A stretch of DNA of 64,000 nt, taken from the NCBI RefSeq assembly GCF_964275005.1, contig NC_092701.1, positions 34,288,520 through 34,352,519 of the forward strand, read 5' to 3'. Under the pieces are notes generated by a model. That model saw only the letters and a list, made by a program, of their open reading frames with translations, had not been told where the DNA came from and did no database searches. The translations under genes and the position numbers were made by a program. This DNA comes from Diadema setosum. Its lineage: Eukaryota; Echinodermata; Echinoidea; Diadematoida; Diadematidae. Positions 6,401-57,625 of this stretch are shown one piece after another (within the stretch, counting starts at the first letter, position 1; each line of letters opens with the position of its first letter).

Positions 6401-9400
6401 CACCCACCCAAATAGTCCATGGGCCAGGCCAGATATAACCCTTGTATATTCCCTTTGCTGCCTTCAATAAAAACTAAGCGCACCGCGTTTACAACAGAAC
6501 ACATGTGAACATACAGAAGACAGTGCTCTTCTTTGTATAGCGCTTGGTCTCGATTCAGAAGTACAGGGATATAACAACGAGACCAAATTGGTTTAAAATT
6601 CATTTACTATGACTAAGCTACTCATCTGGAAATGCTATCATAGCAGCATATCTATGCCCGACAAACAAAATGACACCAAAAAGGTTTTGCCACCTCGGAT
6701 GGTACCAACAACTCATTTTTTCGGCTCTTGGCCCATGGACTAAAAGTTATTCAGTTGGAGGCAATTTCCTTTACAAACGTTATACGGAACCTAAAGGAGC
6801 GACCTTTGCGTAACCTAAAAGCTCCACCTGTCCTGTCCCTATAATAAGCCGGGAAATATGCAATCACCAGGAAATGTGCAAATAGGGGGAAAAGTGCAAA
6901 CGACGAAATTGTGCAAACGATGGGAAATGTATATAAACGTCTAGTCGCGAAATGTGTAAATCTGTAAAATTGCATCAACGCGATATGTTTAAACATAACG
7001 CTTGGAAGCAAAAGATTAAAGAAATAGACATAGTCAAAACCTTACATAATTATACAACCAAGCGCATATACTCACGCGCGCATGCACATCATACACACAC
7101 GCAGACACACAGACACGCAGACGCAGACGCACACACACACACACACATGCATACGGACATAGACACATCTGTCTTTAGAAGATCCATAATGATAAATAAT
7201 GCGTTTCATTAACATGTTACAATATACACTACTGCCAAATAAACTTACTAAAACATTAATCTAATCTGCCTTTTGAATGTTGACAGTGATGGACATAGGC
7301 CCTATGTACTTTCTGATTATACAATTTGTCCCCAACGTCCTCCACAGGTAAAGGTGTCACATCATTATCATGATTATACTGCTTGGTTTCACCCCTGACA
7401 TAGGTATCAGCTTCTGAGATAAGGACAAAGTAAAACTGGAGGGGGAACTTAAAGGGCGGGTCTTTTAATTTTATAATGCATGATCATATGAAAATACTGT
7501 GTCAATACTATTAGAAATCGCATATACTTTTCTTCAAAGAGATCTGTGAACTTCAAAAAACTCAGTTGAAATCGCCTAAATCGCTCATTTTTCGGGTAGT
7601 CGGGAACGCCCCCAGAAAAAGCAAGGACCGGTCACGTGCCTTGTCAGGTGACACTGTGACGCACCAACAGGAACTCATAGTGCGACTGTCTCGCCTAAAC
7701 TGTACTTCACAGTGCAGGGATCTTGTGTACCGGGGTATTTGTAGGAAAGTTGGAGAAAGTATTTCAAGAAAATGCCGAGGAAGTGTGCCGTCATCACCGC
7801 AGCAAAGACACAAAAGATGGGGTGTAAGTCTGCACAACTTCCCTAAAGATGACGCTACTCGAAAAAAATTGGGTTCGTCGAGAATCATTTGCTGACGCGA
7901 GCCCAGTGCAGTGGCCGGGATAGATGGTCCCTTCTACTACGATGTACATTTAATACTACGCACTAGGTTGTACAGCCTCGTATGGAGTGATCGCTTGTAG
8001 TGGAGCTAAGTAGTGCTGTATACTCGGCTAGGATTTGCGCCCAAAAAGAGGATCCTGCAGCCCATAGCTGTCCCTGTTATCAAGCTGGGAAATGGAAGCC
8101 AAACTCATCGTCAGAGAGCTGAAAAACAAAGCGGATCAGCAGTTCTGAAGCTGGATCAGAGAAAGCGGGTATGTTTTGCCACTGTGTAGACGACTCTTAT
8201 TGTACAGTAGCTATCGTACATGTACCGTAACTATACACAGCCCAGTCGCTGTATAATCGCGACAGGGTTCGCACGGCGTCTGGTCGGCCTATAATTGCTG
8301 TATCACTACTAACAGTTTCACGGTTTCGATACTAGGTTGATAAGCTCCGTCTGTAGCGTTTTGAGTGGAACATCACTCAATGTCAGTAAAATTAAGATCA
8401 TGGAGGGATTTTAATGTACTAGTAGTCAAGTTGTGTGCTCATTAAATCGTACTATACTATGAAGTGAACACCTCTAACGTTACATTACTAGACCTAAAAT
8501 TTATCGAAGATTAGTAAGACATTCACTACGCAACACAGTTACATCGGTACCTGCGTGTAGCTATTGATTCTAGATACCACGTAGTACTTGTATGGGCATA
8601 TGGGGTCAACAGTTACCAACTGAGACCGCGTACCAGCCAGCCAGCCGGGCTGGCTGGCTCTGTATATTTTCATCGCTGCTACATTAGAAGGCTTATCAAT
8701 CATACATATTCAGTAACAGTTAATTCTATGACTCTGACTTTGCTTCCCCATTGAGCTCTAAAACTTGTAGCCGAATGGTTGGATGGTGTGTTCCAAAACA
8801 TATTATTAGATTGAATTGATCCAGGACTGGCCATTATTGTTTGTCTTCACTTGCCCATTAGGCAAGTGAAATCTTCAATGTCCATTTTTTTTTCTTGCCC
8901 CAAAATGTTGCCTATATTAGTTGACTAATGTAATGCGATTACATATTTTACATGTGGAAAAAAAAAAGTCACTTTCCTATCAGACAAGGAACTTTCTGCA
9001 GTCAGTTATTTTCAGTTGTCATCATTACAATTTCACTTGCCCTGGTTATGTGGGGAAGTACCGGTACTAATGGCAGTCATTATTTGTGATTACCGGTATT
9101 TGTTTTTCCCAAGAGTTCCTACATGCATCTAGTTAACCACATTCTTGCAGGCCTACATAGACAATTTTAAAAAAAAATTCAATTCCTCTCTGTGCCATTA
9201 TTACATGTACTTACAGGGTTCATCTGGCAGCATTGCACTACAGTGTACTACACAAATTCTGACAGGCAGTGAGCTCGATAAGAGGTGCAACAGATGATCT
9301 GCTCTACCGGCTTGTGAAGACGAACAATCCTGGCTCTTCTAGCGTGAAGGTTCGTAAAGAACAGCGTAGATATTTTATGCAATATTGGAAGAAAATGAAT

Positions 9401-12400
9401 TCACAGTACTCAGAGGAAAATATTAGAATGGCACAATTTGTCAACTACACGTTTTATTATTTGTTTGTCTCTGTAGAAGCATGGCTTTCTTGACCACTGA
9501 GTACACATAGAATGATCAATTTTAAAAGGTCTAGATATACATTTTCTCTTTTTTGGGGGGTGGGGGGGGGCAGGTCTTATGCCTGTTCCACTAATCAGAA
9601 GTCATAGAAGGGAGGCAGTCAGTTGTCCATTCTGAAGACCAACACTCCACCTGCCATGACCAATGGCTACTTATGCATTCTCAAGTCAAGTCTTTGCATT
9701 GAGGAGGGCAAACCCCAATTTTTATATGAATTTGCAAAGATTTTTGATGTCATTATCAAAGTGGTGGTGTCTGTTCATGACACCTCAAGAAATGTGTTGC
9801 TAAAAACCAGTGCAAACAACTTAATTCCATCTATTTTGTGTGTCCCTTTGTTTCTTTCTGTTGAATTTTCTACAGCACAGGTTGATGATGTCCTTTCTGC
9901 TCTTGTGGAGTACAATGACAAAACTCCTGCACCCTGCCAGCCTTCAACGCCTCCCCTTGTGAATGCCTTTGAGTATCATCCAAAGGAGGAAGTTATTGAA
10001 CATCAAAGGAGACAATTTGCACAGTCTGACAAATGATCTGATGAGTTCAGGAATCCTTGCAATTGAGATTGAAGTTCATACAATGTATTCAATACATGAT
10101 ACTGTGCAAATAGTGTTTAATTGTTGCAGAATGATGTTTCAGAAGACTATTTTCATCTGTTCTTCTGTCAGATGGTAGATACAAACACTCAAAATTTTGT
10201 TACACATACCCTGCATTCTTATACCTTCTATTCATGAGTGATCATTTAAAGACAAGATAAGATCACTGTGGTTACTGTTGTATTGTGTCTGTATAACGTG
10301 TATGTTGCATTTCATCACAAACAATATGATGCCAACTTGATATAGTGTTTCAAAGATCATTTATTTGCCAGTTGAATATTGTCCTTTTGATAGCAAAATC
10401 ACAATTCATTTACAATACAACAGTCATGTGGATACAAAAGGAAAACTGTATTTTTTTTTTTGTTGTTGATGTTTGAAGCATACATGGCCATTTTTATGGA
10501 CAGATGAGCTTGCATGCTAACACAATTCTCTAGAGATATTCAGTGTTGTAATGGTAAGTTTAGAAGATTTCTACATGAATGCTGTCCCACACTATGATTT
10601 TACCATTGAATGTTTGCTGTTAAGATTAGAGCTCACTCTTATGATCAAATATTAATATCTTTGACAAGGTAATTTAGAATAAAATGTGTATGCATTATAG
10701 AACACAACACACTCAAAAAGAGATGGAGAAAAAAATTGTAGTTTTGGGAAGGAATGCAATAATTTACTCTTGGTATATGATTCACAAATTTATGAAAAAG
10801 GAGCACAAGATGTGTGTCTGTAAAGCATTAGCATTTTATATAATCTTCATCTGACATGTTGAAGCAGACTGGGGCCCTGTTACTCAAGTTCTGAGACTTG
10901 GAATGCCTCCACAGGGGGGGGGGGGGGGACCAAATTCATAATGCAATGCTAAGTCTAGTTGGGGAATTATTCTGTTGATTTTTATAATGGTTCTCCATAC
11001 ATAATCATTGAAGTCAAGCATTAAAAGTTAAATAAGCATTGTTTTTTTATGAATATGGTGTCAGGTCTCTTTATGAAAGAACAGTTGCAAGGTCACTCAG
11101 TTTGAGAAAATTTGGTATGAATTGATCTTGCTATGACTGGGACTCAGACATTCATAATCATTCATATCACATCTGCATGCAGAGGTACTTTTGAAAACGT
11201 GCACACAAGCAAACACCCACATGCACATATGCTCACATATACATTCACACATTTTTACACATTTTAAAATATTGTGTGAAAGATTGAATAACATCACTCA
11301 CCTGTACTGTTTTGTATATTTACACGTGCAATGCATGTATTATGTTATCCTGAATTTGAGTTCTGTAATTTCACTGATAGATTTATGTATGAGAAAAAAA
11401 ATCACAAAGCTTTTGATTTAATGTTACATGAGAATGTCTCATAGTATTGATATGAAATATACAGTATGTACATGTATGTGCAAAAGATAACTCTTCTGGG
11501 CTGATTTGATTTCAAATGTGGATGTCACTCATGCATGCTTGACTGACCAGCTGCCATTGTTCCAGTGGAATAAATCCCATTTTGTTCCAACATTAGGATA
11601 TGGAGATAACACACTGGTAGGGTTTTACAATCTCATTCCTGTATAGTACACTCCCCCATCTTTTCCTCATTCCCTGTGACTAATTTTCTTTAGTCTCTAT
11701 ACACACATCAACACACACACACACACACCCTTTGACATACTACATACATACCCACAAATACTTTCAATCAGGCATCATTGGAACACTCCCACCAATATGC
11801 AAATTGCATACAGCTAGATGTACAATTCCATAGAAATCTTACTTAAATACATTGTATGTGCATATCTATGAGGGGATATATCTATCCATTCCATGAAGGG
11901 GGCATCAGACAAACATAGGGCAAATATATCAATGATATATTTGTCCTATGTGTGTCTGATGTTGGTGTGTGTTTGTGCATGTTTGTATCTGATATGCCAG
12001 GCCTGGATATGCATGAGTGTACTGAGGGTGTGTGTATATATGTATGTTTTTGCATTTTCATGGGTCTGTATGAAGCTAATCCATTTCTTTTTGTATATAA
12101 GGATAAATTTACACTACCGGTACATGTACTGTATTACTACAACTACAAATGTATGTATAGAAAACACAATACACTTTTTTTTCCATTTGCTAACAAAATA
12201 TAATTAGTGTAATCAGCTGGAAGGAATGTTTGACAAATGTATACTGGTTCATGACAGAACATTACTATATGAGCCAGTTACATTCCAGTTCAATGAGTTC
12301 GTAACTAGACTTGGTCCTGTTCTCTAAATAGAGGCTGTGAAGCTATTGCCGGAAAGGCCACAGCATCTTAATTGTATCAGATCATTATCTATTTCTTCTG

Positions 12401-13331
12401 ACCATGACTGACAACATAGCTGTTCAACGTGTCAATTCTACACAATCAAAATTATCTTCAGTTGTATGGTTGTGAAAGTGTGATTTTCCAATTGCTAAAA
12501 CATGCAGTAGGTCTACATTACAAAAGAGAGAGGGAGAGCATAGCAAGAGTAAGAATTGAGACAAGAGTGCATTTGACATGCAGTCGAACCTTGTTATAAT
12601 GAGGTCAATGGGACCATAGATATCACCCCTATATATATTAAGATCTTGTTATTACTACAGTTTGTCATATCAGTGCTTATAATATTGAGGTTCCACTGAA
12701 CATGCATCAATATATTACAACAAAATAATACATGATCATTTGTACAGAGAGGCTGAAGTCCAACAGCATGTTTGCCAGTTGTGTGCCTTGATGAGTGGGT
12801 GTTGGAAGCTGCATATCATCAGTATGACCACATAATGGACAAGGTGTCTGACAAAGTATGCATGTGACTTTTGCAATACTTATCTGATGCATTTCTACAA
12901 CCATGTTCCCGTTAAGCAGATCGCAATGTGACAAGTCACATTCTACACCCAATATCAGTGCTGCATATACAGTCTTATTACAGCCTATGCAAAATGAAAA
13001 CGTGTCACTCTTTCTGATGGATAAGTTTATCACATTTTCCTCACAGCAGACGATGGCAGTAGGACTCTCACATTTTGGCCCACAAATTTCCAGCATCATC
13101 TCACCAGTTGCCGGTGTATGAACATGTCTTGATCACCTGATATAGAAACAAAAGTGAAACGAAATGGAATGCAAAAGGAGTAAAATTTGATAATCCTTTT
13201 ATATGACATCATGTGTTCATCTAGAAATTTATCTTGAGAATAGGATTTAAATTAGACAATGTGAATGGGACCCATGGAGTATGGTAGTCATTACTTTGGG
13301 TACCTGGTACAACTGTATAATGGCAGCATAA

Positions 13332-13365
<34 letters not shown>

Positions 13366-16300
13366 GTGTAATAATTGACAGTGCTTATACAGCGCATAAC
13401 ACAAAGTGATAATGTCCCTATGCACTCAAGAAATAAAAAATGAAAAGATTATACAAATATATCCTACAAGGCTACATGTACTTTTGCATTATTTACGAAG
13501 ACAGGTCCAATATATTTGAATAAATTACTGGAGTGCAGGACTGAAATCAGACATGGTGAATTAGATATTGCATTCTTTTGATGGGTGCAATTGCACATTG
13601 GCAGTGTAAACAGCATATTGTCAAGGGAATATAAAATGGCAAATTTGCATTATTTCAGAAGAAAAATTGAAAAATTTGACAAACAAACTCACTCATTATC
13701 TGTGGCATCCGTTCTGGTACCTTCTCCATACTGTTAAGCATATTGGTGATAAGCAGCTTCCAACACCCATTCACCAAGGCAAACGGTGGAAAATCCTGGG
13801 TGTGCCGAGTATACAGTTTATTTGAGCATCTGCATGTCGGCCGGTCGTTGTACTGCTCGACCTCCTCTAAGACCGGGTCAGCCTTGTGACAGCACAATAA
13901 CTCCCGTGTTGTAGGCATTGGCACACAGTTCCCACATTGGCACCTGAAGAAAGAAATACAGGTAAATTCAGGTTTACTTGTTGTGTAACTTAATTAGTTT
14001 TAGTCATGTAGTACTGAGCTGCCACACAGTGATAAATTGAGACCAATCCTTCAAGTTCAACATGCCAACTATTGCCACAGAGATTTACATCTACACCAGC
14101 CTCTTCAGTACTTTAGTCTTTAGTGACTTTACTGTCTTGTCCACACATTCCAAATAGCAGTAAGTCAATAAGCAGTAACTAACTGTGGCATTGGTAAAAA
14201 CTTGTACGTTGTACTATGTAGAGAGTCTAGAGTATTATTACAACTTACAAGCAGCAGTTTTGAACTTCCAACATTTGTGACTTATACTTTTTTTTTCTGG
14301 CCTATAGATATACTACTAAAATAAGTGAGTTACTAAGGTTATATAGAATATAGACTCTCTAAGTAGATAATTACCAATTGTTATTCCCCAATCTTGCGGG
14401 CTCGTTGTCATCACCCCGTCCCCTGAGCTTCCTCACAGCCGACTGCTCCGGGGGCGGGAGGTGCAGCGTCTGGTTCATACTACAATGTATACGGGAGTAG
14501 GACTAAACCCAATCGCTGTTGAGGCCGACCAAGTTCAACGCCAACGGCTGCTTCTCCTGCTTGATCGGGGATCTTCGTCCTCACCATCTCGCTCAACATC
14601 CGACTCTGACTCCCTCTCTGACTCACTCGAAACGGTAGCGGGGCATGAAATGGGCGACTCGATCTCGTCGTCTGAATCCATCATTTATTCACACGTATCT
14701 TATTACTAACAAAGCTACACAGGTCAGCGACAGAGCTGCTAGCTAGCTAGAGCTGAGCTGAGGCGAGCGCTAGCACTAGCGCTATACTCACGATCGATAT
14801 AACATTCTAACATCTACCTACCTTGGATCGAGATATCGATATAAATTTAGACTGTTAACCAGTCTCCCGTAACAATATGTCGTTACGACCTGCACACGCA
14901 CTCACCAGTTGCAATGTACATTCAGCAGTTAAGAGGCTGTCACACACGCCTACTTGTCTTGTTTCCTGAAGGAAATGTTTAGTTTTTTCCAAAATGTAAA
15001 CATGATCCGAAATGACAAATTATTATAAGTAAAATACTCGAAAAATGTCCGAGTCGCCATTAAGTCGCTTCTGGAATGAATTATAAACAACATATTTAAA
15101 TCCTTTCTTGGGATGTGCTACTTGCAAAAATTGTGTATTTTATGATTCAAAAGTAGAAAATCTATCCATCATTGACACGCTAGGGCAATGGTGAGAACTT
15201 CTTGCCTTCGCGGGGGGCTTCCTGTTGGTACGTCAAATCGCACTAGCCAATCAGCGGACAATTTTAGGGGGCGTTCCCACATTTGGGTGGTTTTAGAGCG
15301 ATTTCAGACTACTGGTTACTTTTTAAAATCTAAAAATGTCGAAATCGTGTTAGTGGACCTGTATAGAGTCTTTGTAGACCCAATGTTCACCCTAAAAGAC
15401 CCGCCCTTTAAATATCCCGACTGATTTTAAGGCAAATATTACAGGAAATATAGTGGACAAGGTGCATGCTATTACTTTATACTTTACACTTTAAAGCCTT
15501 ACATATCATTATAAATGCACATACTAGAAAGGAGAATTGATGATAAAGGAAGCTTCTGAAAGTGAGTTTAAAGGTACTAGCCCACATTTGTTTTGCAAAC
15601 CCACGAAAATCAAAACTGCATAAAACAGGTCCAATATGACTTCAAGTACAAGTTATAACAGTAACATACCTCACCTGTTGCTCTTTGTCTATACCATTCG
15701 ATAAAAGAGAGAAAATCATCGTATTAAAATCAATTTTCAAACCGGGTCAACCCGACCCAAAATCGAATTACGAGCGCGGGCTAGCTACGTACATGAACTT
15801 ACACATGTATCGCATGCATGTAGTACGTGCGCGGACCGGAGCTAGCGACCGTTTTTATACGCATGCATACGGTGCATTTTCATTTATTTTTATGAAAGTA
15901 ACGGACTAATTGGAAAGAAATTTTGCACAGGTGTTACGGCAATCATACCCAAACTCCATGCTAACTATGAGACCAATTGCTGCAGGTTTACAAATGTGGG
16001 CTAATACCTTTAACTTTAATGTGCAAATGTCTTTATGATATGCGTTTCGCGTTATTATTCTGATATTCTTTCCAAAACACGGGTGTTCTTAATAAACTTA
16101 ACTTAATAAACTTTCAACATTTTCACTCGGTCAACCCCACTCTAAAAATGACGGCTCTGATTGGTAAAGCAATCTTCCCCTTCTTGTCAGGTCATTCACC
16201 TCAATTTATTCTCTCAAACCTACAATGAGTACGACAACACGAAATTATGCACGAGGTGACAGATAAGACGCCCTAATCAACAAGGCAAAGTCTGCAACAT

Positions 16301-21900: not shown

Positions 21901-24900
21901 CAATAAACAAAATGAAATATGGAAAGTTGGTACTGCTGAGATATACTTTGTCAAAATATTATGAGAGAAAGAGTCTGCATTTCAGCTGCATTGTGTGAAG
22001 ACGTTTCTTTTAGTTAGAGTTTTAAGTAAGAGTACAGGAAATTGTGACAGTCAAGCTGTGGTATTACTCAGTGCTTACTTACCTTTGCCATGTCTATTAT
22101 CATTTTATTTTTATTTTTTAGTGTCCATCTGCAAGAAAAACAATTTGCGTCTTTACATACTGCATACGAACACTGGAATCTATGTGTGAGTACACATGTG
22201 AAATAGATGATTACATACATACATGTGTGTGTTCCTTTTGCCTAAGTCTTCCAATAATTTCTTCATACCTGTGCAGCTAGAGAAACATGCAGCACAGGCC
22301 TAACGCGCTGTCCAGTGAGGGAGACGTGTAACACAGATACCAACTTCTGTAAATGTATCGGCAACAGAGTCCGCAACGAGAACGGGATTTGCCAAAGTAG
22401 GTAACTGCCTGTGGTGTCTTGGGAGTGTTTCATAGTGAGTTGTGATTGATCTTACGCTCGATTTATCTCGGTGAACTGAGCGTAAGTTTGATATTGAGCT
22501 AAGTCCTGTTTCATAAAGACACTTACGCTTGATTTCAAGAAATATCAAGCGTAACTTTCAGTCGATTGAGCGTTATTTGCGATCAATCGCAGGTTGTTAT
22601 GAAGCACTATTTGCGATTGATCGCAACTTACGCTCAATCTTTATGAAACAGAACCCTGTATTAACACGTAGCATAACATTACATTCCATTACATTACATT
22701 ACATTACATTTAGAATTACGTTACATTACATTACAACCTTAAGCAAAAACAGGACTGTGATAGAATCATGAAGCTCCCTAGCAGGACAACAAAAGGAAGT
22801 TAGAGTACATCCTTAAAATATTAACTTGTTGTGTTAGTGTTTTAAATTCACAGGGTTGTTGAAATTGACGGCGTAAATGAACGTGACACGTCAAGTACAC
22901 AAGACTACTTAAACCAAACGTAAAGCACGCTGTCACGCGCCTGACAAGGTACGCCGATTTCTCACTTCATTAGTCCATGGACTAGATTTGAATTATGGAA
23001 GTCATCATAATTACTAGGCCTGCACCTTTGTAACATCGGGCCAGTGTGTTATATCTCATGACATGATAAATTAACACAATAGAACCTAAGTCAAATGTGT
23101 GTATTACTATAATATGTACATTCTTGTTTCTGTGTGCGTGTGTGTGAATGTGTGTGTTGGGCACACTTTGCTTGCATAAATTCATTTATAGATTCAATTT
23201 GATACATGCATTCTAAACGTATTTTTTTCTAAGTTGAACACTACTTCCTTGACTGATATAATCTCTGCCAACAATGGTGAATGAATTATGAGGAAAAAAG
23301 AGATAATTCAAAGTTCTCCCTCGTTCTGAAGCAACGTAGACACGAAATGGTTTATCAACTTAAATTCCTGTGAACAACGTGTGGGATAATGAGATAACGA
23401 CTCCATTATTGCATGCTCTTGTGTCGATTTAGGGAATGCTCTTATGTCGATGTATAGAGGATGCTTTTTTTGTCGTGATTTCCGATGCTGACACTGCTTA
23501 ACATGCCTGACATTAGAATGGTAATGAATGGTTCTATGCAGGGTCAGGTGTGCTACAAATCAGCATCGTGATACTGCTGATCGATGGCGATGATTCCTCT
23601 TTCTTCACCATCATCACAAATCCGACATCATCGACGTCGGTGGACTTTAGACGACGCATAATAGTAGCGGTAAGGCTATCCCGATAGTCTGTGTAGGTTG
23701 CACTGCAAAGTCTGTGGTCTTCTCAATAGACTGACTTTAGGGAATGCTCTTGTAAGGCCAGTAACCAGTATAGGCTAGTGATATTGAGCGTATTGTTACA
23801 CGTTTCTAAAGAATTTTTGGGGAAGGCGGGTTTTTTTTTTTTCCTTTCTCTTTACATGTCAACAGACCCTTTTGACATAAGAATATAACCATCAGCCATC
23901 AGCTATGTGGAGTGCAGGCAGAGCTATATCGGCTATTATTTTGGCATGTCATTCTCCATAGCCTAATGTCTCCCCTTCATCCTTCTCACCAGCTTCAATA
24001 ATCTCGTAAGTCACTTGTAAGTTGTAACCGTGTATAATTTATCGAATCCATGTTAATTGTTTAAAAGGATTGAGTAGGTAGTAAATTGTACCTAAGTATA
24101 GTGACCAAGTAATGTGTAAATTATCATTGAAGTCTTTTGTATGCGCTGTATGAAACTTTTCGCTTTAAATATCCTGTGTCCATCGCAGCTTTCATCCATT
24201 TTCACCAGACGTTTCGGAAATTCATTCTTCGGGGTCAGCCTAACGAGATACCGACTGGGGAGTCTCGAGGTAGATGCCGACCTCCAGTTCGTCAACGACA
24301 CCTTGGAAGTCGTACCCGATCTAGCGGACGTTATGGAGGCATTCACTTCCTCCCTGGACAATGACGTTGTAGAAGGATTCACTATCGATCCATCGAGGAC
24401 CACAGTTACTGGTAAGAAAAGATTGGTGCTTTGCAAGCATGATAATACTTTGTTACCTGCTATTGTTTCGTGAAGTAATAAAGTTAAGTCAATTGAGAGC
24501 CAAAAAAAAAATAAATGCAATTTAGCAAAATGGAAAATGCCTTTAAAACAACATTAAAATAATGTTGTTTTATGTATAGACCCTATGCATACTTTCTGAT
24601 TATACAATTTGTCCCCAACGTCCTTCACAGGTGAAGATGTCACATCATTATACTGCTTGGTTTCACCCCTGACTAAAGTATCAGCTTCTAAGATAAGGAC
24701 AAAGTAAAAGTGGAGGGGGAACCTAAATATCCCGACTGATTTTAAGGCAAATATTAAAGGAAATATAGTGGACAAGGTGCATACTATTACTTTATACTTA
24801 AACACTTTAAAGCTTTACATATCATTATAAATGCACATACTAGAAAGGAGAATTGAAAATGACTTTTACTTTAATGTGCAAACGTTTTTATGATATGCCT

Positions 24901-32900: not shown

Positions 32901-35900
32901 TTCAGCTGCATTGTGTGAAGACGTTTCTTTTAGTTAGAGTTTTAAGTAAGAGTACAGGAAATTGTGACAGTCAAGCTGTGGTATTACTCAGTGCTTACTT
33001 ACCTTTGCCATGTCTATTATCATTTTATTTTTATTTTTTAGTGTCCATCTGTAAGAAGAACAATTTGCGTCTTTACGTACTGCATACGAACACTGGAATC
33101 TATGTGTGTGTACACATGTGAAATAGATGATTACATACATACATGTGTGTGTTCCTTTTGCCTAAGTCTTCCAATAATTTCTTCGTACCTGTGCAGCTAG
33201 AGAAACATGCAGCACAGGCCTAACGCGCTGTCCAGTGAGGGAGACGTGTAACACAGATACCAACTTCTGTAAATGTATCGGCAACAGAGTCCGCAACGAG
33301 AACGGGATTTGCCAAAGTAGGTAACTGCCTGTGGTGTCTTGGGCGTGTTTCATAGTGAGTTGTGATTGATCTTACGCTCGATTTATCTCGGTGAACTGAG
33401 CGTAAGTTTAATATGAGCTAAGTCCTGTTTCGTAAAGACACTTACGCTTGATTTCAAGAAATATCAAGCGTAACTTTCAGTCGATTGAGCGTTATTTGCG
33501 ATCAATCGCAGGTTGTTATGAAGCACTATTTGCGATTGATCGCAACTTACGCTCAATCTTTATGAAACAGACCCCTGTATTAACACGTAGCATAACATTA
33601 CATTACATTTAGAATTACGTTACATTACATTACAACCTTAAGCAAAAACAGGACTGTGATAGAATCATGAAGCTCCCTAGCAGGACAACAAAAGGAAGTT
33701 AGAGTACATCCTTAAAATATTAACTTGTTGTGTTAGTGTTCGAAATTCACAGGGTTGTTGAAATTGACGGCGTAAATGAACGTGACACGTCAAGTACACA
33801 AGACTACTTAAACCAAACGTAAAGCACGCTGTCAGGCGCCTGACAAGGTACGCCGATTTCGCACTTCATTAGTCCATGGACTAGATTTGAATTATGGAAG
33901 TCATCATAATTACTAGGCCTGCACCTTTGTAACATCGGGCCAGTGTGTTATATCTCATGACATGATAAGTTAACAGAATATAACCTAAGTCAAATGTGTG
34001 TATTACTATAATATGTACATTGTTGTTTCTGTGTGCGTGTGTGTGAATGTGTGTGTTGGGCACATTTTGCTTGCATAAATTCATTTATAGATTCAATTTG
34101 ATACATGCATTCTAAACGTATTTTTTTCTAAGTTGAACACTACTTCCTTGACTGATATAATCTCTGCCAACAATGGTGAATGAATTATGAGGAAAAAGAG
34201 ATAATTCAAAGTTCTCCCTCGTTCTGAAGCAACGTAGACACGAAATGGTTTATCAACTTAAATTCCTGTGAACAACGTGTGGGATAATGAGATAACGACT
34301 CCATTATTGCATGCTCTTGTGTCGATTTAGGGGATGCTCTTATGTCGATGTATAGAGGATGCTTTTTTGTCGTGATTTCCGATGCTGACATTGCTTAACA
34401 TGCCTGACATTAGAATGGTAATGAATGGTTCTATGCAGGGTCAGGTGTGCTACAAATCAGCATCGTGATACTACTGATCGATGGCGATGATTCCTCTTTC
34501 TTCACCATCATCACAAATCCGACATCATCGACGTCGGTGGACTTTAGGCGACGCATAATAGTAGCGGTAAGGCTATCCCCGATAGTCTGTGTAGGTTGCA
34601 CTGCAAAGTCTGTGGTCTTCTCAATAGACTGACTTTAGGGAATGCTCTTGTAAGGCCAGTAACCATTATAGGCTAGTGACATTGAGCGTATTGTTACACG
34701 TTTCTAAAGAATTTTTGGGGAAGGCGGTTTTTTTTTTTTTTCCTTTCTCTTTACATGTCAACAGACCCTTTTGACATGAGAATATAACCATCAGCCATCA
34801 GCTATGTGGAGTGCAGGCAGAGCTATATCGGCTATTATTTTGGCATGTCATTCTCCATAGCCTAATGTCTCCCCTTCATCCTTCTCACCAACTTCAATAA
34901 TCTCGTAAGTCACTTGTAAGTTGTAACCGTGTATAATTTATCGAATCCATGTTAATTGTTTAAAAGGATTGAGTAGGTAGTAAATTGTACCTAAGTATAG
35001 TGACCAAGTAATGTGTAAATTATCATTGAAGTCTTTTGTATGCGCTGTATGAAACTTTCGCTTTAAATATCCTGTGTCCATCGCAGCTTTCATCCATTTT
35101 CACCAGACGTTTCGGAAATTCATTCTTCGGGGTCAGCCTAACGAGATACCGACTGGGGAGTCTCGAGGTAGATGCCGACCTCCAGTTCGTCAACGACACC
35201 TCGGAAGTCGTACCCGATCTAGCGGACGTTATGGAGGCATTCACTTCCTCCCTGGACAATGACGTTGTAGAAGGATTCACTATCGATCCATCGAGGACCA
35301 CAGTTACTGGTAAGAAAAGATTGGTACTTTGCAAGCATGATAATACTTTGTTACCTGTTATTGTTTCGAGAAGTAATAAAGTTAAGTCAATTGAGAGCCA
35401 AAAAAAAAAAATAAATGCAATTTAGCAAAATGGAAAATGCTTTTAAAACAACATGAAAATAATGCTGTTTTATGTATAGACCCTATGCATACTTTCTGAT
35501 TATACAATTTGTCCCCAACGTCCTTCACAGGTGAAGGTGTCACATCATTATACTGCTTGGTTTCACCCCTGACTAAAGTATCAGCTTCTAAGATAAGAAC
35601 AAAGTAAAAGTGGAGGGGGAACCTAAATATCCCGACTGATTTTAAGGCAAATATTAAAGGAAATATTGTGGACAAGGTGCATACTATTACTTTATACTTT
35701 ATATATTGAAAACATCAGATCTGTTCAGTTACAACGTCGGCACGTTTATGTATAAATTTTCTGCCAATGAGTGACCGGATGTTTTTACTCGCATGTTCAG
35801 GAAAAATTATTTGATTCATAATTATCCTACTCGCCAAAGTGACGCATTTCACCTTCCACGTACTCGAACAAGTTTCGCTAAAAAAGCGATAATGTATACG

Positions 35901-53000: not shown

Positions 53001-55189
53001 TTACCCTGATATCACTGCATTGCCCCAATACCCAGTAACGTAACCGATATTACCCACATTCCCATGTTATTTCAACACAATATTATTAAAGATAAAGATT
53101 GAGGGTAGTTAAGAGAATATGTTAGGTACAATTTGGGGATTGATATTTCCTACTCATAATCCTCATCCTATCCTAACCTAACCTAGCCTGTTCCTAATGT
53201 CCTACCATCTATACCTACTACATCCTATTCCTAACGGACGTATACTCTTATCACATTCTATATTGCATATACCTGCAAAATGTTGTAATGCGTGAGGACT
53301 TGGTTACTAAAATTAGGTAACACATTTTCTCATTTGAATATTCGTGAATATGCATAATGCATGAATATTACTGTTATTACTCAAGGTTGCAACGTTATTA
53401 CCAATCAAAGCCATTAGACATTACCCATATTACCCCTTATCACCCTGTTGTAACTCAGTAAAATGTTGGTTTCAACAGGTTTCAACACGGTGATAACAGT
53501 AATTTGTGGAACTTGAAAATTTTGCTGGGATTGCTTCGAGATTACTGTTATTACTCAAGTTTGCAATGTTATAACCACTTAAAGCCATTCAAGATTACCT
53601 ATACTACCCCTCATCACCCTGTTGTAAACTCGGTGAAATGTTGGTTTCAACACGGTGATAACAGTAATTTTGTGGACTTGAAAAATTTGCTGGGATTGCT
53701 GTAAGATTACCGTTATTACTAAAGTTCGCAATGTTATAACCAATCGAAACCATTCAGCATTACCCATGTTACCCCTCATCACCCTGTTGCGACTCAGTAA
53801 AATGTCGGTTTCACTGGGGTGATAACAGTAATTTTGGGGGGACTGCAAAATTTCGCTGGGATTGTTGTAAGATTACTGTTATTACTCATGATTGCAAGGT
53901 TATAACCAAACGAAGCCTTTCAATATTACCCATATTACCCCTCATCACACTGTTGTAACTCTGTAAAATTTCGGTTTCATCAGGGTGATAACAGTAACAG
54001 ATGATATAATTTGGGTAATAGCATGGTACTAACGGCAATATTGGTCTTATTCAAATTTCGAGAGGACATTACTGGTAATATCCGGTAATGTTTGTAATCG
54101 GTAACAAATTGCCCAGTGGGAGCCATAAATTTAGGTTTCTTCGTGCCGTTAACAAAAGCATGAATAGATGCTGATTTTCGATAATGAAACTAAACAGCCG
54201 CTCCATTTCATCAAGAAAAATATATTAGACATTAAATTTCACAGCAGAATTCAAATGGAGCCCCATCGCAATATGTATATCACTATCATCAAATTAACGA
54301 TGCCCCCTTTAAAACGACTCTCACCTTGGACCGAGGTTCCGACGGGCACAGTGTTGGAACCCCAGAATTTTCCTCCAGGGTAACACTTCTCCGCCCTCTC
54401 CGACCACAGCGTGCTGGTCACGTGGAGGACGTTCAGCCACGATGGTCGCACGTCGTATCCTTTTGTCGTGACGTTGTCGGAAATCATGCACGTGTCGCTG
54501 GTCTGCCCAAAGTTCCGACTGTACCCGGACATGACGTAATGTGATGGATTCGACATCCACGACGTCGGCCGGCTCATCTTCGTCAGGTTCACCTTAGCAA
54601 TCGAGTGCTGCAGCTGCCTCGCCGCGAGCGCACACGATGCGAGTTTGGGTGCTGGGATAAAGTTTGTCATCAAGGAGAAGAAAACCCAGAGGCAGAGGGC
54701 AAATAGGAGCATCTCTTTGCGGCATTTGAATTTGTCGGCGATGTATCCAACCAGGGGAGTGGTGAAAAAAGAGATGAGGCGGGGGAGTGCGAAGATGAAT
54801 CCCAACTGGACTGGGTTAAATCCTACTTGGAGTCCATACACGGAGAGGTACAAACTCAAACACGCTTCTCCCCCTCTCAAAAAGATGTAGAGGACTTTAC
54901 AGTGCACCAGAGAATCGTCCATTTTCTGCGACAACTGTTGAAGGCACCCGTAACAGCCCGGTGCGTCCTCTTTGTCGTTGGCAGCAAACTTCTCGGAGTT
55001 GCTGTCTTCGACGTCGTCATCTTTTCTGGCGCCTTCTTCCTGCTCCTGCTCGAGCCTCTCCACGGTGTGAGAGTACGCGCTCAGGAGCCGTGCGCGCTGC
55101 TGAGTTTCTTCCGTCAGTAACAGGCATTCCGTCACGCTGGGTAACGAATCGACGGAGCCACTGTCCGTATTGCCACTTCCCAGGGTCAT
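46798..55189 (-). CDS. MFSD6-like major facilitator (six exons found, 3' end missing)
   Basis: Join on -: 54325-55189, 50674-50884, 49565-49724, 48705-48852, 47769-47972, 46798-47030. Phases agree and give 607 open codons. Residues 1-95 are acidic and cytoplasmic, then TM1 (about 98-120), TM2 (128-150), a motif-A-like G-Y-I-A-D-K-F-K-C-R-K (148-158) and TM3 (160-180). A large loop (about 181-290) with N-L-T and N-V-T glycosylation sites follows TM3, then the remaining helices. A large loop early in the protein and W-Q-R-A-F-G-N-A-G-Y-A-I match the MFSD6 branch of MFS_1-like carriers. Vertebrate MFSD6 is a membrane protein of uncertain substrate. No stop codon was reached, so at least one C-terminal exon is missing. 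Introns carry a MITE and a satellite. Confidence 0.85.
47417..47748. mobile_element. MITE, about 330 bp, beside a splice donor
   Basis: The ends GGGGGGTGTTTCATGAAAC and CTTCATGAACTACCCTCC are complementary with mismatches. Inner arms CTGATTGGCTGA / CAGCCAATCAG and AGCTACTGAAAT / ATTTCAGTAGCT pair as well. The right side carries a 42-base tandem duplication (AACAGTTTGTCAGGGGG repeated). No clear target duplication. Confidence 0.75.
47769..47972 (-). CDS. MFSD6-like exon 5
   Basis: Phase 1 in and out. It encodes S-G-I-S-E-L-S-F-A-F, G-H-E-F-L-L-I-A-G-T-A-G-S and V-E-V-I-H-G, a well-kept block. The donor GTTGGT is non-consensus, but phase and family alignment both favour it. A MITE begins 20 bases beyond. 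Confidence 0.8.
47973..48704 (-). other. MFSD6-like intron 4
   Basis: No repeat or hidden exon recognised. AT-rich. Confidence 0.5.
48705..48852 (-). CDS. MFSD6-like exon 4
   Basis: Acceptor TTCTTGCAG, phase 0 in, phase 1 out (GTAGCG). The central cytoplasmic loop (K-D-P-S-E-T-N) is followed by P-G-L-I-V-M-V-L-W-Y-L-A-A-N-E-G. Confidence 0.82.
48853..49564 (-). other. MFSD6-like intron 3
   Basis: Pyrimidine-rich tracts and a short GTTGTCGTTGTC run near 49495; nothing else seen. Confidence 0.5.
49565..49724 (-). CDS. MFSD6-like exon 3
   Basis: Phase 2 in, phase 0 out (donor GTCAGT, weak). The split Tyr codon joins G-Y-A-I to I-I-L-V-T-T-F-I-N, then a short loop and helix F-V-I-F-L-G-T-T-S-C-A-I-A. 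Confidence 0.8.
49725..50673 (-). other. MFSD6-like intron 2
   Basis: Contains the GT run, poly-A at 50621-50630 followed by poly-G at 50637-50650. No exon seen. Confidence 0.5.
49911..49941. repeat. GT microsatellite
   Basis: GT run in an intron of the MFSD6-like gene. Confidence 0.9.
50674..50884 (-). CDS. MFSD6-like exon 2
   Basis: Enters in phase 1 after CCCCTCAG, leaves in phase 2 at GTGAGT. It encodes F-Y-A-V-F-A-L-I-T-V-A-N-V-M-Q, a D-T-A-T-V stretch and W-Q-R-A-F-G-N-A-G-Y-A-I, a conserved block of this family. Confidence 0.87.
52493..52526. repeat. Perfect 13-bp-arm hairpin
   Basis: AAGCATGGAGGTA, an 8-base loop and TACCTCCATGCTT pair perfectly. Too short to be a clear miRNA precursor; could be a transposon end pair. 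Confidence 0.7.
52765..53065. repeat. TTACC/GGTAA-rich low-complexity stretch
   Basis: Many TTACCC, GTTATTACC and AATAACGTT words, with palindromes GTTATTACCCGGGTAATAAC and AACGTTGTTAT. It leads into the satellite and shares its ATTACC vocabulary. Confidence 0.6.
53367..54000. repeat. Satellite of four ~166-bp units
   Basis: Units start at about 53367, 53541, 53706 and 53872 with ATTACTGTTATTACTC. Each runs through CATTACCC, CATCACCCTGTTGTAACTC and GGTGATAACAGTAATTT to GCTGGGATTG. The start and GTGATAACAGTAAT are inverted copies, so every unit is itself bounded by inverted repeats. Confidence 0.85.
54325..55189 (-). CDS. MFSD6-like exon 1
   Basis: Starts M-T-L-G-S-G-N and encodes the acidic N-terminus, three helices and the glycosylated loop with W-S-E-R-A-E-K-C-Y-P-G-G. 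Donor CCAAG/GTGAGA, phase 1. The start is chosen because it is the first ATG in an otherwise open frame; a 5' untranslated exon was not searched for successfully. Confidence 0.87.
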
Positions 55190-57625
55190 AGCACAGGCAG
55201 GAGAATAACGGGATCTCCCGTCGTTCTCTTGAGGTGTATCACACTACGATGAGCTAAGCCAACGCTGAAGGGCTTATAGCTGTCGCCCGTGGCACTGACT
55301 GGTTCGTCACGTCTTCTGGCCATAGATGTACTATCATTGAAAACAAAAGAATAAGGAACAATAATGTTTATTCTAAATGATTCACTCTTTGGCAAGTCTG
55401 TAACTAGTAAGATCATCAGGACCATGATAAAATCAACTACCCTTTTGTAAGTCAATGTTTCTTCCAAAAGTGAAACAAAAGAAAGCGTAGACCTATGCAA
55501 TGCATGACCTCAATGCCTGCATTATGACAATTTGGTTCGTTGAATTATAATTTCCCATTGCAAAGAAAATGAATCTGAGAATTACTTTATAAACTTTTCG
55601 TAATTAATATCAATTTCAACATTCGACACGAGTCTTCAATTGACCATTGTGGTGCATGACAAACAATACAATGGTTACATTTTGATTTGCCCACGTGTAT
55701 TTACGTTGAGCCCGGTAAACTGCATTATATATAATCCAAATACCGAAAACAACTTAATGGCGGTATAGCAAGCCAGAGGAACGCTATCGGCCATCGCAGA
55801 AGCTTTCTAATCTTTTCTACACTTTCGTGTGGTACTTTTCACACAAGACCTAGTCATGCATGTATACCCTCTACATACAATACAACGCCTTCATGCAAAA
55901 CACTTTCAACCAAGTCAGAGTCCGAATGAAAAGCCGTATTTTTCATGTGCGCTTTCTGACAGGGTCATCTGCATGCAACTCTGTTGAATAAGTAAAGGCA
56001 GTACCAATCCATGCGGATAGCACTCTATACCTATACAGTATAATAGCCACATTGCTAAGTTCTTTCAGTTTAAACTGTACTTTACATTGCGAACGTTCCA
56101 GAAAGGTTTCTGATATTAATTCTGCTGACCGTATAGGCCTACCCAGTATCCCGCTGATCTTTACACAAATTCTACGGTTCATGAAAATCCGGTGATCATA
56201 GGCCAAAGTTTAGTTTGCGTGTTCTTGTTCTTCTTTTCTCTTCGTCTTGTTCTTTTCCTTCTTCCTATTTTCTTTCTTCTTCTCCGTATCATTATTAACG
56301 ATACATAAATTACCTACACTGCTATCATTTATTAGTAGCATATCATTATTATTATCATTTGGGCCAACTATTAACATTATTGATATTATTTACAATCGTT
56401 ATCGATGCTGAATATAGTGCTTTAACACATCATGCCTTACAGATTTCAATATAGACTTTCTATAGACCATCTCCCTATGTGTGCGAATTGTTTGTGCTTG
56501 GTCCGGCATAAGGCATGTGTGCCTCTTTGTTACCAGCATTGTTTTTGTGTACCGTGAGGGTCGATGTGGTCTGCCGCTTTTTGGTGTAAGGCAATTCATA
56601 AACAAGCTCATCTCGATCCATGTTACATAATTGTATATTGGCAACTGTTTTGCCAAGAAGTCTATGTATCTCGTATGCTGCTTTGGATTTATGTTTTCAA
56701 AATTGAATGTTTTGGTTCTGGGGTCGATTATTGATAATCTCAGTAGTGCCTCCACAACCATAATATCTGCTACAGGGAATACATAGAAACATGGACTGTT
56801 GTACATATTTGCCTACGTCCACTACATTGGTAGCAGAAAGCATGATGGTTAAAAATGTCTAAACAGAACCCATTAGGGACCTATTTCATAAAAAGTTTAT
56901 ATGATAGCAACTCTTGGTGGAACAGCAATTGTCATGGTAACGACAAGAATCCAGCTTCCTGATTGGCTGTTGCTCTGGGAAATTGTCACTCCAGCAAAAG
57001 TTACTATCCCAACATTTTTATATGTCATGACCGTAAATTATTCCCGAGATTATCGCACAGTGATTGCGCGTGACTTACACCGGTAAAGATCACCTTGGCT
57101 GCAACCAATCTATTGTACTCCAATTGAAGTGGTGCTTTGGCATTGATGATTACTTTAATAGTTACAATAAATCAATATTCTTTCCAAGAGAGAAACACGG
57201 AATATCACTCGGCCCCTACAACATCCAAGAAATCAACACTAATCATTTTATAAGAAACTCAAGGAAAGAGAACAATGCAATAAGTTGATAATTCGTGTAT
57301 TTCATATCAAAATTCATCTTCATTGTCGAAATCATCGCAGCTGCATGTATTTGTATTCCTTCTTATCTCATACAAGACACAAAAATCTCACAGATGTAGG
57401 GCTGTTAAAGATTTTTGTGAAAATCAGTTGATAATGGAAATATGCAAAAACACCCCCCCCCCAAAAAAAAAAAAGGGGGGGGGGTCAGCTTAGAGCTGCT
57501 GGGGATTTTCTGAAACAGGCATGGACAACCTTTAATCACCAGTGATCATTATTTTGGAGGAATGGAAATGTATCTTGTAAAATAAGCGTAAATAAAAGCT
57601 TTGTAGATTTCTCTATCTTTGTATG
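55190..57625. other. Upstream flank of the MFSD6-like gene
   Basis: Presumably holds its promoter and 5' untranslated exons; none could be identified. A 135-codon open frame at 56399-56806 (-) is not recognised. A repeat with CCTATTTCATAAA and CTGATTGGCTG lies at 56877-57030, and a C-A-G homopolymer block at 57449-57484. Confidence 0.45.

Follow-up and report, generated by a model that had tools for sequence, protein, structure and literature searches.

A probably non-autonomous Kolobok-type transposon family of the sea urchin Diadema setosum with broken THAP and KolX/ballast genes

A stretch of 64,000 nucleotides of the genome of Diadema setosum (NCBI RefSeq assembly GCF_964275005.1, contig NC_092701.1, positions 34,288,520 to 34,352,519 of the forward strand; called here the window, and numbered from its first letter) contains a gene resembling the zinc-binding C-terminal ballast of P2X7 inside a transposon. 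Does this gene belong to the transposon, or was a host gene caught there by chance? A preliminary description, made from the letters of the window alone, had proposed that the ballast-like domain is or was transposon-encoded, and that such an element could carry it to other genes. In this manuscript we describe the element, its copies in the 912.7 Mb of genome searched, and the state of its two genes. The element is very probably a non-autonomous transposon of the Kolobok type and of the Kol0 kind, the amplified members of which, subfamily A, spread with frameshifted genes. Judged by its sequence the ballast-like gene has two exons and belongs to the KolX/nanor type of zinc domain genes (P2RX7_C).

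One DNA transposon occupies positions 7449-15411 of the window, its length being 7963 bases when the two TTAA sites are counted. The sequence TTAAAGGGCGGGTCTTTTA is found exactly only twice in the window, at 7449-7467 on the plus strand and at 15393-15411 on the minus strand, giving identical 19-nt ends where 0.02 matches would be expected with up to three mismatches allowed; this confirms the 15-base matched ends with flanking TTAA which had been reported earlier. Each end is composed of a TTAA target site (7449-7452 on the left, 15408-15411 on the right) and a 15-nt terminal inverted repeat (TIR). Beyond the perfect TIRs a fainter inverted similarity extends for approximately 220 nt, the left subterminal region (7453-7673, plus strand) showing interrupted inverted similarity to the right one (15219-15407, minus strand).

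A self-comparison of the window revealed tandem duplications, two members of which have the left and right flanks joined without the element. These empty insertion sites are located at 24576-24856, where the flanks are joined by one 4-nt site (CTAA), and at 35476-35701, both on the plus strand; the filled site is TTAA while both empty duplicates have CTAA at the corresponding four bases. It follows that the unit was inserted whole, or was precisely excised from the other two duplicates. Large tandem segmental duplications occupy 16108-38655 of the window (one block of 6.6 kb at 97% and another of 3 kb at 94%, for instance), and both empty sites lie within them.

The exact end has 57 matches genome-wide, compared with none for a reversed-pattern control. 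Fifty of these pair to give 25 elements, which measure 7.5-18 kb and include one of C type (see below), and a ballast match is present inside all 25; each of the seven unpaired ends has a ballast match within 14 kb. The other copies with the same TIRs thus do hold the ballast sequence, as do those copies of subfamilies B and C in which the region was read, and the proposal that the domain is or was encoded by the transposon is upheld. At least 28 elements of subfamily A, that of the window included, are 95-100% identical over the left kilobase (40 of 416 candidates were scored; the 28 derive from 29 rows, two of which are one element). Twenty of the other 27 were fetched for reading and the element was present in every one, in one piece in 13, while the remaining seven carry an insertion or deletion or are truncated by the boundary of the fetched stretch. 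For 17 of these 20 copies both ends could be located; their flanks differ, and TTAA is present on both sides (one change allowed); as the TTAA belonged to the search pattern, it is the empty sites that provide an independent test of the target site. Ballast matches were found in 18 of the fetched copies, while the fetches of L013 and L022 stopped before the gene; the genome-wide list of ballast matches, for which 150 of 257 candidates were scored, places one inside both. Ungapped pairwise divergence among 15 A sequences is 0.000-0.020 with a mean of 0.015, and subfamily A is therefore young. Copies L023 and L024 (C24:27415928-27431827) stand head to tail with a single TTAA between them, as does a pair at C4:47860858-47875845, an arrangement that would result if one element inserted at the other's end or if a unit was duplicated. 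In L018 (C7:7638272-7638635) the right end is directly followed by a repeat of the element's final 355 bases, which includes a further complete TIR.

The ballast gene lies on the minus strand. Its exon 1 (14375-14684; MMDSDDEIESPIS ... NNNW) is frameshifted, and is followed by a GT...AG intron (13944-14374) whose splicing joins NNNW to CQCGNC as in a protein of Diadema antillarum. Exon 2 (13689-13943; CQCGNCVPMPT ... HPGFSTVCLGEWVLEAAYHQYA ... DATDNE and a stop) has a frameshift between 13841 and 13802, and an inverted fragment of it, 80% identical to 13784-13719, is found on the plus strand at 12781-12845. When the exons are joined at the splice site the reading matches P2RX7_C (Pfam PF20478) with 26.1 bits (E=9.5e-6; cutoff 23.5), over residues 59-105 and in two unmended pieces; exon 2 by itself gives E=0.46 unstitched and 0.35 stitched. 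The ballast blocks noticed in the preliminary description are thus present, but as a frameshifted two-exon pseudogene and not as a working gene. The Diadema antillarum protein, a prediction of 151 residues which ends ahead of the WVL part, matches the stitched ballast query with 65% identity over 84%; its blocks are 95, 88, 78, 66 and 58% identical to the window, the lower values falling at the breaks. It scores 22.2 bits against P2RX7_C, below the cutoff of 23.5. The best listed match to this protein in the genome is 92% over 100 residues and none listed equals its full length, while one 28-residue block of copy L038 is identical to it. A predicted structure of this homolog was set aside as a poor model (mean predicted local distance difference test score 44). 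An extended ballast query recovered five proteins at E≤0.001, the Diadema protein and four others of 36-44% identity, the latter without genomic context. In viral contigs, none of 13 stretches was confirmed to contain the ballast.

In the majority reading of the A copies the THAP stretch, ballast exon 1 and ballast exon 2 all keep their breaks (18, 14 and 19 of 21 rows, respectively, were usable, incomplete rows being dropped; the ballast frameshifts are judged relative to the Diadema antillarum protein). The master copy of subfamily A was most likely already dead in both genes, and the A copies would have been mobilized by enzymes of other elements. We suggest that the two strands of an ancestral element bore a THAP gene and the accessory gene KolX, respectively, the latter specifying the zinc-binding ballast domain and presumably having had an original role in transposition. 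Subfamily A would then have spread recently from a master copy with both genes already frameshifted, the transposase of another element presumably recognizing the TTAA/AGGGCGGGTCTTTTA ends and, acting in trans, cutting and pasting the copies into TTAA sites.

Is the transposase truly lacking from the element itself? The coding blocks of the plus strand comprise THAP pseudogene block 1 (7772-7895; MPRKCAV ... GVSLHNFPKDDATRKK), which is frameshifted, block 2 with an AVPTIF-like end (8030-8185; KKRILQPIAVPVIK), a third block in an open frame (9263-9490; GATDDLLYRLVK...) and a last block terminated by a stop codon (9880-10036). Blocks 1 and 2, stitched from three frames and joined directly or with X, score 23.2 bits against PF05485 (E=1.2e-4; cutoff 23.9), and the plain, unstitched THAP open reading frame (ORF) gives no score; the THAP blocks described earlier are present, but broken. 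A THAP protein query against 5.8 billion proteins gave no match at E≤0.001 among 84 candidates. No ORF of 150 amino acids or more was found inside the element, and the 22 ORFs and stitched pieces that were scanned contained no transposase match in Pfam, some short ORFs being outside the scan. Of the DDD/E transposase that marks Kolobok, usually with THAP and H2CH motifs, only the THAP relic is seen, and the element is accordingly at most a non-autonomous member whose A copies presumably moved in trans. When A is compared with B, six of the seven gaps within 9190-9500, the region of the third block, have lengths divisible by three, a hint that this block may once have been under coding constraint.

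It is nevertheless conceivable, though improbable, that the element belongs to an autonomous family whose transposase is or was the THAP gene, its catalytic part having been missed through decay or divergence. The transposases of Kolobok usually have DDE, THAP and H2CH motifs (Hikosaka and Konishi, 2018, PMC6004289), and our scan rested on Pfam, with no Kolobok transposase sequence, and on reading by eye for the ORFs of B and C. Against this, a shared stop closes the last coding block in L012 of subfamily A, L029 of B and L030 of C, one copy from each, and the missing long ORF and the outcome of the scan speak in the same direction.

Subfamilies B and C are older. An end search with three positions free gave 117 matches, the control 6. 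Among the 100 matches that were listed are 45 exact A ends, one end differing from these by one base, and 54 others which form 22 further elements of 7.9-25 kb, identified solely by their ends. The ballast region was read in six copies of B type (L029, L032-L036), all of which have ballast matches, the best block being 70% identical in most; a seventh B-type piece, L039, ends short of the region. Wherever the region was read in B and C the ballast has the same place and orientation as in A. L029 is approximately 16% diverged from A over the aligned columns. Among the C-type copies, L038 and L040 have ballast exon 1 in one frame, with one stop within the matched part in L038 and none in L040, while exon 2 of L040 is without the CxC of the cysteine motif; neither exon of L040, unmodified, matched P2RX7_C in Pfam. 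The most open versions of KolX are the predicted Diadema antillarum protein and these two copies. The C-like L030, L031 and L037 are cut by insertions and show no ballast in the fetched stretches, but ballast matches occur farther on beside all three. L030 is interrupted by an apparent retroelement with reverse-transcriptase and integrase-like ORFs, as judged by eye.

These copies bear on a further alternative, namely a split Kolobok whose short THAP protein and KolX persisted as two free-standing accessory proteins with no transposase in the element, the right third of B, with its KolX, having been replaced or exchanged. The suggestion of a replacement comes from L029, whose identity to the window is 82-88% across most of the left 5.9 kb, apart from one 141-base block at 77%, but 69-76% in the right third, ballast gene included, while L038 stays at 85-93% there, as does L040. 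We regard this as unlikely, and prefer the non-autonomous Kol0-type element with decayed genes. If the split arrangement were true, DNA-binding and zinc-ballast helpers would travel apart from the enzyme.

The assignment to Kolobok has also to be weighed against piggyBac, which likewise targets TTAA and some families of which reportedly code for a protein similar to KolX. The termini of the element are 5'-AGGGCGGG...CCCGCCCT-3', of the AG/CT type, and thus conform to the 5'-RR/YY-3' pattern that Kojima and Bao (2022, Mobile DNA, PMC9587614) ascribe to Kolobok in contrast to piggyBac; the 4-bp TTAA target site duplication is that of Kolobok, for which Hikosaka and Konishi (2018) give TTAA and AGGRR ends. 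Since, in addition, the KolX-like proteins of piggyBac are described as being without most of the seven cysteines (PMC9587614), whereas CQCGNC...CC is clear here, and the element contains a THAP relic, a piggyBac origin is very unlikely. The placement in Kol0 is inferred from the homology to KolX, recognized here by sequence comparison (the P2RX7_C match), taken with the published account that Kol0 elements encode a transposase and KolX, a protein with the P2X7 ballast fold (Kojima and Bao, 2022).

That a nanor-like host gene was captured by chance, or is nested in one copy, accords with the treatment of ballast genes as host genes numbering fewer than ten per species (Rump et al., 2020, PMC7016195), but is rejected for this genome by the ballast found in all 25 elements with paired exact ends and in the B copies read, approximately 16% diverged in the case of L029. 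Outside the three subfamilies at least 21 places with 42-62% identity to the ballast were found among the scored candidates. Ten short pieces of such repeats were read: L041 and L042, on different contigs, show no difference in 351 bases; L043 and L044 are 96.5% alike; and L045 and L046, at 99.3%, have in-frame stops in common. These pairs have the appearance of additional dispersed repeats whose ballast genes are dead, probably belonging to other transposon families, and near-identical pseudogenes on different contigs fit the picture of the ballast as transposon cargo.

Several observations weigh against our interpretation. The independent empty sites carry CTAA, not TTAA, at their single 4-nt site. 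The THAP score is just under the Pfam cutoff and depends upon joined frames, the second cysteine of the C2CH motif is not visible, and unmodified pieces of subfamily C give only 14.7 bits for THAP and no match to P2RX7_C. With no transposase, the placement in the superfamily relies on the ends, the target site and KolX. Substitutions between A and B are distributed over the three codon positions as 8/8/9 in the third block and 11/12/9 in the fourth, showing no bias (the stretches compared are somewhat wider than the exons); the gaps in the fourth block are of 1, 2 and 3 bases, and most gaps of the THAP stretch have lengths not divisible by three, so that the comparison does not establish that the THAP gene was once under selection. 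Lastly, exon 2 is in one frame in three of 18 A copies (L021, L023 and L024); exon 1 stays broken in all three. Elsewhere in the window, an open frame of 330 amino acids (54251-55243) may specify a protein resembling an MFSD6-type transporter.

Miniature inverted-repeat transposable elements (MITEs) are short, whereas the copies of the present element, compared with the T2-MITE of Xenopus, keep approximately 8 kb including the relics of both genes. They are otherwise similar to Xenopus XKol/T2-MITE (PMC6004289) in the TTAA site, the AGG-type ends, the old origin with recent activity, and in being non-autonomous copies of a kind thought to be moved by Kolobok transposases. With Kol0 and its KolX (PMC9587614) they share TTAA, RR/YY termini, a KolX with similarity to the cytoplasmic ballast of P2X7, and an animal host; unlike Kol0, no transposase was found in the element, the THAP gene stops with no DDE domain seen, and the amplified copies have a broken KolX. 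The WCQCGNC...CC zinc motif is that of the P2X7 ballast (PDB 6u9v, 8tr5, 9e3q), to which structures the Diadema protein gives a weak sequence match (E=0.03-0.04); unlike P2X7, no channel part is seen here. The NANOR/ZCD proteins (PANTHER PTHR36981) likewise have the ballast cysteine motif in short proteins, and one Ixodes ORF combines a THAP domain (printed TAHP) with a ballast (Rump et al., 2020, PMC7016195). The ballast/ZCD genes of that study, one or a few (<10) per species across animals, are treated as host genes, unlike the present gene, which lies inside a transposon in many copies; the string "transpos" is absent from its main text.

The conclusion which the preliminary description reached from the sequence alone is that already published in 2022, when P2X7 and nanor were proposed to be likely derived from KolX (Kojima and Bao, PMC9587614). 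Its idea of the transposon as the mover of the ballast domain to other genes agrees with this literature, but for P2X7 and nanor it is not new. The element is a new, probably non-autonomous family of the published Kol0/KolX kind, and the link between ballast and Kolobok was already known. The spread of copies with broken KolX indicates that KolX from the moving copy is dispensable in cis. The empty sites, the ballast in each of the paired elements, and its presence in three subfamilies provide independent, copy-level evidence, in the genome of a sea urchin, for the P2X7 ballast as cargo of Kolobok-type transposons.

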